Shown here piece by piece: positions 286 through 44,125 of a stretch of 44,125 nt of DNA; within the stretch, counting starts at the first letter, position 1; every line of letters starts with the position of its first letter. A program made the translations under genes and the position numbers. Source of the DNA: a virus; the IMG/VR virus record IMGVR_UViG_3300023082_000016, positions 1 to 44,125 of that record. One strand, 5' to 3'. The notes beneath the pieces were generated by a model. That model searched no databases, had not been told where the DNA came from, and saw only the letters and a list, made by a program, of their open reading frames with translations.

Positions 286-313
286 AAAAAGCCCGATACT
301 GTGAATATCGGGC
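286..313 (-). terminator. Rho-independent terminator after the tRNA-Pro 3' end
   Basis: On the minus strand, an 8-bp stem GCCCGATA/TATCGGGC with a 7-nt loop is followed by TTTTT. It stands just past the CCA of the tRNA fragment and would end its transcript. The right att has an analogous but different hairpin at the same place, so the phage replaces the terminator when it integrates. Confidence 0.7.
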
Positions 314-432
314 TAAGTCATTGAATTAAATGGTCGGGACGGAGTGATTCGAACACTCGACCCCTTGCACCCCATGCAAGCAAATGGGCCTACAGCCCAG
401 TAAACACAAGGTTCTTCGATTGGCGCTCGCTG
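311..432. repeat. Left attachment-site direct repeat (attL)
   Basis: This 122-bp stretch is identical to 44004-44125. It includes the 3' 50 nt of a tRNA-Pro(GGG) on the minus strand (331-380), then a small inverted repeat (TGGGC/GCCCA, about 386-400). The bases before it (283-310, ATGAAAAAGCC and a GCCCGATA/TATCGGGC hairpin) have the same layout as the bases before the right copy but a different hairpin. The minimal crossover lies somewhere in the shared sequence, probably in the tRNA part. Confidence 0.85.
331..380 (-). tRNA. Partial tRNA-Pro(GGG), 3' half, in attL core
   Basis: Read on the minus strand, the sequence has an anticodon stem CTTGC/GCAAG around the loop ATGGGGT (anticodon GGG), a variable loop, a T-arm GAGTG-TTCGAAT-CACTC, an acceptor 3' strand CGTCCCG, discriminator A and encoded CCA. 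No D-arm or acceptor 5' strand lies upstream: at 381 the sequence turns into unrelated DNA. It is therefore only the 3' end of the tRNA, the usual target of tyrosine integrases. The hairpin GCCCGATA/TATCGGGC followed by T5 on the minus strand (286-313) would be its terminator. Confidence 0.75.
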
Positions 433-469
433 CAACGATGCCCAACCGTGTTTTACAGTGATTACCGAT

Positions 470-487
470 GTCACTCGGAAAGTCACT
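470..487. promoter_or_regulatory. Putative integrase arm-type site, P' side
   Basis: GTCACTCGGAAAGTCACT holds two GTCACT units 12 bp apart. It lies about 90 bp inside the left core. A copy with one mismatch lies at 43956-43973, just inside the other core. Paired short repeats at both prophage ends, outside the tRNA core, are what arm-binding sites of tyrosine integrases look like. The function is inferred. Confidence 0.55.
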
Positions 488-532
488 CAGCCTTTTTGGC
501 TCCTTCCCCGGCGTCCTGCCGACCGAACACAA

Positions 533-772
533 TCACCCCTTCCGCTCTGCCAGCCACTCCTGAGTTTCAAGCTCGGCCTTCACGTGCTCCAGGGCAGCGT
601 CGGCAAGCTCCAGCATCTCGCGCAATTCCTCTTCATCTATTACGCCCAATCTCGCCAGCGCATTGGCGTGACCCAGCAACTCACCATGCCAGTGATCAGT
701 CGCGCATTCCCGCCGCGCCTCATGGTCGAGGTGGTCGTTCCATATCTTCAGCTCACGCTCTTTGACATCCAT
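533..772 (-). CDS. Small acidic protein downstream of UmuD'-like gene
   Basis: The product is 79 aa and I do not recognise it. It is highly charged, with a helical C-terminal half (IDEEELREMLELADAALEH) and no membrane segment or signal peptide. I chose the ATG at 772, 4 bp after the stop of the UmuD'-like gene, with AGTAGGTGT before it; the longer frame to 835 would overlap that gene. The tight spacing implies co-transcription from the LexA-controlled promoter, so it is probably SOS-induced too. It could be a partner or modulator of the UmuD'-like protein, but nothing in the sequence proves this. Confidence 0.7.
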   Translation of the reverse strand: MDVKERELKIWNDHLDHEARRECATDHWHGELLGHANALARLGVIDEEELREMLELADAALEHVKAELETQEWLAERKG

Positions 773-776
773 ACAC

Positions 777-1121
777 CTACTCCCCGTCATGATCCCGAAT
801 GCTATGAGTGACCACGCCCCACACTTCGAATTCATCCGACTCCAGAATGTACCGGTCCGGATAGGCCTTGTTGCCTGATCGAAGGATGGGCTGGCCGCAT
901 GACGATCGGGCCAGGTACTTCACCGTCGGCTCCTGGTTGATGACGCCGATGACGATAGACCCCGGCACCGCCTCCCGACCCTTATCGACGATCAGCAGGT
1001 CACCGCTGAATATCCCGGCACCTATCATGCTGTCGCCCTCGCATTTCACAAGGTATGTTCCAGGTGCACGGAGTTTGAGCAGCTGGTCAAGGGATATTTC
1101 AAGATGATCGGGTGCGTCCAT
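777..1121 (-). CDS. UmuD'-like S24 family protein (SOS-controlled)
   Basis: The product is 114 aa of the LexA/UmuD S24 peptidase fold. The Ser motif GDSMIGAGI (Ser31) and the Lys motif EPTVKYL (Lys68) are 37 residues apart, the same spacing as Ser60-Lys97 of E. coli UmuD. The protein starts where UmuD' starts: the N-terminal arm with the cleavage site is missing and the length matches processed UmuD' (115 aa). A longer frame to 1265 exists, but its extra residues look non-coding and would cover the LexA box at 1135-1150, so the ATG at 1121 is preferred. No UmuC is in the window. It may form mixed dimers with host UmuD/UmuC and alter mutagenic repair after DNA damage; this is inference. Confidence 0.85.
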   Translation of the reverse strand: MDAPDHLEISLDQLLKLRAPGTYLVKCEGDSMIGAGIFSGDLLIVDKGREAVPGSIVIGVINQEPTVKYLARSSCGQPILRSGNKAYPDRYILESDEFEVWGVVTHSIRDHDGE

Positions 1122-1134
1122 GACGAAGACTCTA

Positions 1135-1150
1135 CTGTATGGGCGTACAG
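1135..1150 (-). promoter_or_regulatory. LexA (SOS) box
   Basis: CTGTATGGGCGTACAG is a perfect CTGT-N8-ACAG, in the wider context TACTGT...ACAGTT. It ends 13 bp before the chosen start of the UmuD'-like gene, so bound LexA would block transcription or initiation. Confidence 0.85.
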
Positions 1151-1284
1151 TTAAATCGAGCACAGGAATCGGGTCAATACTGGATGAGCGGGTTTGCGAC
1201 GGGTGACCAGAACGGTCGGAGGGGGTGCGGCGAGGCGCGGTGCCGGTTGCGTTATAATGAGGCATTGTTTAGCGAGGTGACGCG

Positions 1285-30167: not shown

Positions 30168-30389
30168 TTAGGCGGCTGATTTTTTCGTGGACTGCTTGCC
30201 GGACTTGACGAGCTCCCCGTGCATTTGGTCGATGGCGATCCCGGCGATGTAGCTCGGGTTACCGATCTGCCCATTGCGGATACGGAAGATGGTCGATATG
30301 TCGCACTTGGCGCGCTCAGCAATGGCCTTGTAGGTCCAGCCAGAGCCCAGCAATGCATTCAATTTGTTCGGAAGTTCGGTAGCGCTCAT
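30168..30389 (-). CDS. cro: Cro-like regulator
   Basis: The product is 73 aa from the ATG at 30389, which has AAAGGAGG 5-6 nt upstream. It carries a helix-turn-helix (SGWTYKAIAERAKCDISTIFRIRNGQIGNP) and a Lys-rich tail. It is the first gene of the minus-strand early operon, divergent from cI across an operator region (30405-30497). By position it is the Cro that competes with CI for ATGCAC...GTGCAT operators. The longer frame to 30443 would run through the operators. Confidence 0.85.
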   Translation of the reverse strand: MSATELPNKLNALLGSGWTYKAIAERAKCDISTIFRIRNGQIGNPSYIAGIAIDQMHGELVKSGKQSTKKSAA

Positions 30390-30404
30390 GGCTGCCTCCT
30401 TTGT

Positions 30405-30497
30405 AGATATGCACATATTCATGCACTGGTGCATATCTGTCAACGCCCCATTCTATTGATGTATGCACCGGCTAAGGCGACGATTGCACTCATGCAT
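30405..30497. promoter_or_regulatory. Right operator region and early promoter (PR)
   Basis: A perfect 14-bp operator ATGCACTGGTGCAT lies at 30421-30434, with related sites ATGCACATATTCAT (30409-30422), ATGCACCGG (30463 on) and TTGCACTCATGCAT (30484-30497). The last covers the cI start codon. On the minus strand TTGACA (30443-30438), a 17-nt spacer equal to the perfect operator and GAATAT form the cro promoter. CI binding would shut it off. Sites near the cI start imply autoregulation. Confidence 0.8.
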
Positions 30498-31334
30498 AAA
30501 ACTATTGATAAAATTCTGGCGGATTTGATGGCTAGGGCTGGCCTGAATCAGGTTCAGCTGTCCGCGCGCGCCAATGTTGGCCAGTCCACCATTTCCCGGA
30601 TTCTTAAGCCGAACGGGCCTAAGGGGATCAAGGAGCCGACAGACAAACAGGTCCGCCCTCTGGCGGAATACTTCGGCGTTACCACCGATCAGCTGCGCGG
30701 CTTCTCCCCTCTGATTCTTGAAGGTGCGCCGGAGAGCCCGGGGAAGATTGAAATACCGACTTCAACAGCGGACAAGCTCCGGGAAATGCTGGCAGGCAAG
30801 ACGCTGGGGAGTGACAAGCTCGCCAAACTGCTCGCTGTGGCTGAAGGCGATGAAGTAGAGCTGGCCGGAGGCGTCCTTGTGCATGACGCATACCGCCCAG
30901 GTAAGGTAGGCGACGAGGTCTGGATCGCTCACTACGACATTCGCGGCGCTCTAGGCGGTGGCGAGGTCGCCCATGACTACCCTGAAATGCTTCAGGACGT
31001 GCGCGTCAGCCCTTCGCAGCTTAGGGCCATGGGTGTTGAGTTCGTTGAGCATTACCACCTGAAGATGATTACAGGCTGGGGCCAGTCAATGACCCCCACC
31101 ATTAAGCATGGCGATCCTTTGCTGGTAGACATCAGCATCAAGGAGTTCGTCGGCGACGGAATCTACTTCTTCTCCTATCAAGGCTTCCAGTACATCAAGC
31201 GCTTACAGATGAAGGGGAAGGACAAATTCAAGATGATCTCGGACAACCGTAAGCACAAAGCCGAAGACATCTTTATCGATGAGACCTACATCCAGGCCCG
31301 GGTGCTCCTCGTCTGGAATGCCAACTTGGTGTAA
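30492..31334 (+). CDS. cI: CI-type phage repressor (XRE HTH + S24 peptidase)
   Basis: The product is 280 aa from the ATG at 30492. The N-terminal helix-turn-helix is LADLMARAGLNQVQLSARANVGQSTISRIL. The C-terminal S24 domain carries GQSMTPTIKHGDPLLVD (catalytic Ser) and GFQYIKRL (Lys). Between them, RGALGGGEVAHDYPE is the probable autocleavage region. It keeps the prophage silent by binding the two operator clusters and is inactivated by RecA after DNA damage. Three plus-strand genes follow closely and are probably expressed with it in the lysogen. Confidence 0.95.
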   Translation: MHKTIDKILADLMARAGLNQVQLSARANVGQSTISRILKPNGPKGIKEPTDKQVRPLAEYFGVTTDQLRGFSPLILEGAPESPGKIEIPTSTADKLREMLAGKTLGSDKLAKLLAVAEGDEVELAGGVLVHDAYRPGKVGDEVWIAHYDIRGALGGGEVAHDYPEMLQDVRVSPSQLRAMGVEFVEHYHLKMITGWGQSMTPTIKHGDPLLVDISIKEFVGDGIYFFSYQGFQYIKRLQMKGKDKFKMISDNRKHKAEDIFIDETYIQARVLLVWNANLV

Positions 31335-43941: not shown

Positions 43942-44009
43942 CGAAAAACCCCAAGGTCACTCGAAAAGTCACTGAGGCAGAAATGAAAAAGCCACCCGAA
44001 GGTGGCTAA
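43938..44009 (+). CDS. Possible 23-aa peptide after integrase
   Basis: A 24-codon frame (MTKNPKVTRKVTEAEMKKPPEGG) starts with an ATG overlapping the integrase stop (GTATGA) and ends within the att region. It is basic. It overlaps the arm-type site and the terminator hairpin, so it may be only a by-product of sequence kept for other reasons. Confidence 0.25.
   Translation: MTKNPKVTRKVTEAEMKKPPEGG
43956..43973. promoter_or_regulatory. Putative integrase arm-type site, P side
   Basis: GTCACTCGAAAAGTCACT differs in one base from the site at 470-487 on the other side. It ends about 50 bp before the right core. Two GTCACT units 12 bp apart suggest binding of the integrase N-terminal domain. Confidence 0.55.
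43986..44006 (-). terminator. Phage-provided terminator at the right att
   Basis: On the minus strand the stem GCCACC/GGTGGC with loop TTCG is followed by TTTTT. It takes the same place relative to the tRNA CCA end as the hairpin at 286-313. In the integrated state it would terminate transcripts coming from the tRNA side. Confidence 0.7.
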
Positions 44010-44125
44010 GTCATTGAATTAAATGGTCGGGACGGAGTGATTCGAACACTCGACCCCTTGCACCCCATGCAAGCAAATGGGCCTACAGCCCAGTAAACAC
44101 AAGGTTCTTCGATTGGCGCTCGCTG
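44004..44125. repeat. Right attachment-site direct repeat (attR)
   Basis: This stretch is identical to 311-432 over all 122 bp and reaches the end of the window, so it may continue. It contains the tRNA-Pro(GGG) 3' 50 nt (44024-44073, minus strand), then the same non-tRNA sequence as in the left copy instead of the tRNA 5' half that an ordinary attR would show. Confidence 0.85.
44024..44073 (-). tRNA. Partial tRNA-Pro(GGG), 3' half, in attR core
   Basis: Same 50 nt as 331-380: anticodon arm with GGG, T-arm, acceptor 3' strand and CCA. The 52 bases that would hold the D-arm and acceptor 5' strand (44074-44125) do not resemble a tRNA. No intact tRNA-Pro is in the window. Confidence 0.75.

Follow-up and report, generated by a model that had tools for sequence, protein, structure and literature searches.

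A solitary, arm-less UmuD' homologue behind a LexA box represents a family of Pseudomonas phages and plasmids without a partner polymerase gene

The window analysed here (the whole stretch of DNA, a 44,125-bp IMG/VR record) carries a gene for a UmuD'-like S24 protein without the N-terminal arm of UmuD; the gene lies on the minus strand, where the lysis region ends, next to an att-like repeat. By sequence comparison, it belongs to a separate, widespread family of Pseudomonas phages and plasmids in which this gene has no partner polymerase gene. The window gene probably encodes a HumD-type UmuD' that is constitutively active and activates host UmuC; sequence and the analogy with phage P1 favour this reading by a fair margin over its denial. 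The following features of the window are referred to below.

311-432, strand not assigned: att-like direct repeat of 122 bp that includes the 3' half of a tRNA-Pro gene and recurs exactly at 44004-44125
533-772, minus strand: orf79, second gene of the operon, encoding a small all-helical protein of 79 aa and starting 4 nt past the umuD' stop
777-1121, minus strand: arm-less UmuD'-like S24 gene, 114 aa, dyad Ser31/Lys68 (phrog_811, PF00717, PDB 1umu)
1135-1150, minus strand: LexA box CTGTACGCCCATACAG, 13 nt upstream of the ATG and at the same place in relatives
1149-1154, minus strand: predicted -10 element TTAACT, overlapping the first two bases of the LexA box and conserved across subclades
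1172-1177, minus strand: predicted -35 element TTGACC, with a 17-nt spacer, kept by most clade members irrespective of the gene behind it

Homology of the 114-aa protein (ATG at 1121-1119, stop at 779-777) to UmuD was unambiguous (phrog_811, 9e-32). It matched PF00717 at 1.6e-20 (also given as 2e-20), and its closest solved structure was UmuD' (PDB 1umu, 3.5e-15); the score with the NCBI UmuD model was 90 bits, below the 110-bit cut-off. As the earlier note had recognised, Ser31 (GDSM) and Lys68 (TVKYL) are placed at UmuD spacing; they are 37 residues apart and coincide with the catalytic dyad of UmuD' in the PDB alignments. The protein is an S24 protein of the UmuD type with a Ser/Lys dyad and UmuD' as its best match, sharing domain, dyad and spacing with E. 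coli UmuD' (PDB 1umu, 1i4v), which differs in being made by RecA-stimulated self-cleavage of UmuD and in being encoded with umuC. The view that the protein begins exactly at the N-terminus of UmuD' was only partly borne out. It is arm-less and of similar length, but alignment with armed copies places its start 3-4 residues past the UmuD scissile bond, with GFP absent and two more residues missing ahead of ISLD; the length comes near that of UmuD' because the C-terminus is longer (RDHDGE). Neither an arm nor the cleavage motif [AC]-G-FPSPA was found upstream of the window gene. A umuC partner was likewise missing, as had been stated before: the whole 44,125-bp record contained no IMS-domain protein or Y-family polymerase, and tblastn with UmuC gave no significant match in the window. 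Both marks of a full-length cleavable UmuD, i.e. an arm with a cleavage site and a umuC gene directly downstream, were absent from the window gene.

The missing arm and umuC would also be expected of a decaying remnant of a umuDC operon, an explanation to which we give almost no credence. Compared with relatives L003-L005, the gene showed dN of 0.025-0.035 and dS of 0.48-0.65 (dN/dS about 0.05-0.08), and it is under strong purifying selection. As far as sequence can, decay is refuted by a dN/dS far below 1, by the conservation of promoter and partners, and by a large clade whose copies resemble one another.

The LexA box described in the earlier note, 13 bp from the start, was confirmed at 1135-1150. 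It is the only perfect CTGT-N8-ACAG in the 44 kb, but since 0.54 perfect boxes are expected by chance in this length, its position and conservation carry the LexA claim, not its presence. The close relatives L003-L005 and L086 share a perfect box at this position, and L006-L014 have one whose distance to the ATG is 14 nt. Most subclades, including those in which another gene, orf98, stands first, keep the promoter sequence TTGACC - 17 nt - TTAACT; L086 and the L059 group deviate from it. A consensus promoter scan reported nothing for the predicted umuD' promoter; because it missed the -10 element, the prediction rests on conservation. The box and its overlap with the -10 element suggest that the operon is LexA-controlled and SOS-inducible. 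Transcription should start about 7 nt past the -10 element, inside the LexA box near position 1142, and a start codon further upstream would therefore be excluded from the message. Use of such a start, giving a full arm with a cleavage site, had been named as a case against a ready-made UmuD', and no sign of it was found in the sequence. The open frame upstream of the ATG in the window encodes nothing arm-like and contains no cleavage motif, its length is not conserved between close relatives, it lies upstream of the conserved promoter, and an in-frame stop located at the box ends it in L006-L014. The strong constraint on substitutions in the gene is a further line of evidence for an arm-less product. 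Since the message is predicted to start inside the box and relatives carry this stop, no RecA-cleavable arm is expected to be made. A DUF7448 gene (phrog_2650) at 1285-1662 on the plus strand is transcribed away from the umuD' operon and has a TATAAT near 1252; humD of P1 likewise has a divergent neighbour (lxr).

Relatives were gathered from IMG/VR, GTDB genomes, 399 Pseudomonas genomes, phages and plasmids. The sample is non-random, because similarity to the window protein was the criterion for inclusion. The family set comprised 123 relatives at least 50% identical, 63 armed and 60 arm-less, the window included. Comparison of the N-termini of homologues, proposed earlier as a check, gave a nearly clean split between armed copies with umuC and arm-less copies without it. 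Armed copies (AGFPSPA) were followed by umuC just downstream in 55 of the 57 cases with enough DNA following, the exceptions being L070 and L077. None of the 60 arm-less copies had umuC downstream (46 with at least 1 kb of downstream DNA, 14 with less), and across the whole contigs of 10 arm-less virus records no IMS-domain protein was found. The closest armed relatives are the umuDC and rulAB operons of Pseudomonas and phages, which are about 50-65% identical in the core and also under LexA control; they differ in that the arm with AGFPSPA is present, the box lies some 110 nt ahead of the core, and umuC (rulB) follows immediately. The enterobacterial and Acinetobacter phage copies examined were armed and accompanied by umuC. 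A LexA box stood at the operon head in 51 of the 60 arm-less copies, directly upstream of the gene in 26 and upstream of an intervening orf98 in 25. An arm-less subclade (L015, L110, L112, L116, L136, L137, L152) had no perfect LexA box at the operon head, and four of its members (L015, L110, L112, L137) had an orf79-like gene upstream.

In the tree, 46 arm-less rows formed one clade (support 99/94), and most arm-less copies fell within the clade of Pseudomonas phages and plasmids. Two further arm-less groups from Pseudomonas, the L043 and L056 types, may represent additional events. The Pseudoalteromonas phage ACA1 (L172, 1959-2324) encodes a solitary 121-aa S24 protein annotated as 'SOS sensing protease', which may stand for a third solitary lineage.

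The principle of a ready-made phage UmuD' is not new, because HumD of P1 is a known LexA-controlled UmuD' homologue. The idea dates from 1999, and the title of the original HumD paper, as cited by others, states that HumD facilitates SOS mutagenesis; in its database record HumD complements UmuD'. Like the window protein, HumD is an arm-less UmuD' homologue of a temperate phage, with a LexA box and no adjacent umuC, and gp26 of N15 is also arm-less with a LexA box; the window gene follows the same strategy, i.e. an arm-less, solitary gene with a LexA box at its promoter. HumD begins exactly at MGFPSPA (MGFPSPAADY), with a LexA site 20 nt away, and keeps GFPSPA while having lost GDSM (ADSH); the window family shows the reverse. 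N15 gp26 has lost the serine (ATH in place of GDSM), unlike the arm-less window family, where the dyad is complete throughout. No orf79 or orf98 partners are listed for P1. Membership in the HumD family (NCBIfam NF051876) was rejected, as the window protein scored 52 bits against a cut-off of 120 bits and P1 HumD 221 bits. HumD and N15 gp26 grouped with enterobacterial UmuD (support 93/96), and a tree forcing all arm-less proteins into a single clade with HumD was worse by 28.4 lnL units (p-AU 0.0409). These comparisons give moderate support for a lineage separate from HumD, a result that is not final because branches are long and about 100 columns were available.

All 60 arm-less copies, even those of about 55% identity, had both the serine and the lysine. 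The HumD-type reading fits this less well, because a purely structural UmuD' would not need the dyad. An arm-less protein might instead pair with host UmuD and use its dyad to cut the host arm in trans, so that little phage protein would convert the whole host UmuD pool to UmuD'. This possibility, to which we assign a distinctly smaller share of belief, is a real rival because arm-shortened UmuD can cut its partner's arm in trans; it cleaved UmuD S60A in this way (PMC5342242). It would account for a dyad kept with no arm to cut in cis, and the HumD lineage, which is not expected to need the dyad, has lost GDSM. GDSM and the lysine could, however, also be retained for folding, and heterodimers of UmuD with UmuD' normally lead to degradation by ClpXP. 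Preferential formation of such heterodimers and their feeding to ClpXP (PMC5342242) would also suit a damper or decoy that would engage host UmuD in heterodimers, or occupy UmuC or RecA, and in this way lower host translesion synthesis or recombination during induction. A solitary subunit without a polymerase agrees with this role, but we consider it unlikely, since plasmids retain the gene too and the functionally tested analogue HumD promotes SOS mutagenesis, to judge from the title of its paper and its database record.

The presence of a second small gene behind umuD' was upheld: orf79 begins 4 nt after the umuD' stop (533-772) and is conserved in several relatives. It follows arm-less umuD' in L003, L004, L012, conjugative plasmids of P. 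syringae/P. cerasi and many phages, lies upstream of it in the distant subclade L015, L110, L112 and L137, and is optional, being absent from L005-L011, L013 and L014. It is under purifying selection, and AlphaFold gave a confident helical model (pLDDT 93) with no significant PDB match. The window lacks the other partner, orf98 (phrog_5560), which precedes arm-less umuD' in one group and follows it in a second, with about 33% identity. An invariant C-terminal Y-x-QSWWCR was seen in members on either side of umuD' (L045, 7694-7987; L059, 1830-2117). For orf98, AlphaFold gave a confident beta model, again with no significant PDB match. No known domain was found in either protein, and Pfam, NCBIfam and PADLOC gave nothing usable. 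A considerably less probable reading takes orf98 - arm-less UmuD' - orf79 as a mobile SOS cassette common to Pseudomonas phages and conjugative plasmids, which would take over the control of Pol V together with its small partners and in which the protease would be kept to cleave host UmuD in trans.

The phage itself encodes a CI-like HTH-S24 repressor at 30219-31334 on the plus strand (S24 match at 31041-31304), for which the GTG start in the gene list probably lies too far upstream. The window protein could pair through its S24 domain with that of this repressor and serve as an SOS-induced antirepressor; this is very improbable, as the protein is of UmuD type and not of CI type, and the same cassette is kept beside parAB on conjugative plasmids. 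Roles other than that of a polymerase subunit exist among UmuD relatives, e.g. Acinetobacter UmuDAb (PMC11332147), a repressor that binds DNA through its N-terminal domain (PMC4807011); the window protein has no N-terminal DNA-binding domain of this type.

The host is probably a Pseudomonas, as indicated by the phage relatives (PS-1, Cruim01, phiPSA1), the tRNA-Pro att site and the genomes of relatives. The tRNA part of the repeat matches annotated tRNA-Pro genes, with the anticodon loop read as GGG, and window positions 311-529 are 84% identical to phage phiPSA1 beside the phiPSA1 integrase. The sequence common to the two copies runs past both ends of the tRNA part; one of them may therefore be attP of the circular form, and the second a junction with positions 1-310. 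A UmuC-type C-terminal domain was found in six of the seven Pseudomonas genomes carrying an arm-less copy, which is not above the base frequency of 253/399 (about P = 0.2); the carrier genome G160 gave no UmuC match.

As far as the DNA can tell, the reading as a ready-made UmuD' is supported. The arm normally helps full-length UmuD to hold the replicative polymerase. When UmuD is cleaved, UmuC becomes active and the Lon signal is lost with the arm, which also holds the ClpX recognition sequence (PMC5342242); damage must persist before UmuD' homodimers build up (PMC4552617). An element making UmuD' at once would skip these delays. In such a HumD-type mechanism, LexA would occupy the umuD' promoter until RecA filaments clear it, whereupon the phage or prophage would make UmuD' directly, with no need for RecA-dependent cleavage. 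The product would lack the Lon and ClpX signals carried by the arm, might dimerise with itself or with host UmuD/UmuD', and might bind UmuC of the host or a UmuC from another mobile element. Pol V would then act early and for longer, aiding replication of damaged phage or plasmid DNA at the cost of mutation.

If so, a pre-cut UmuD' would have been reached at least twice by mobile elements, in enterobacterial HumD and in the Pseudomonas family. The arm would go with umuC on phages and plasmids: elements with their own polymerase would keep the safety catch, and those borrowing the host polymerase would have none. Two uncharacterised SOS partner proteins, orf79 and orf98, are named here, and the family offers a large set with which to study the increase of host mutation by phages and plasmids in the SOS response, a route to faster bacterial adaptation.
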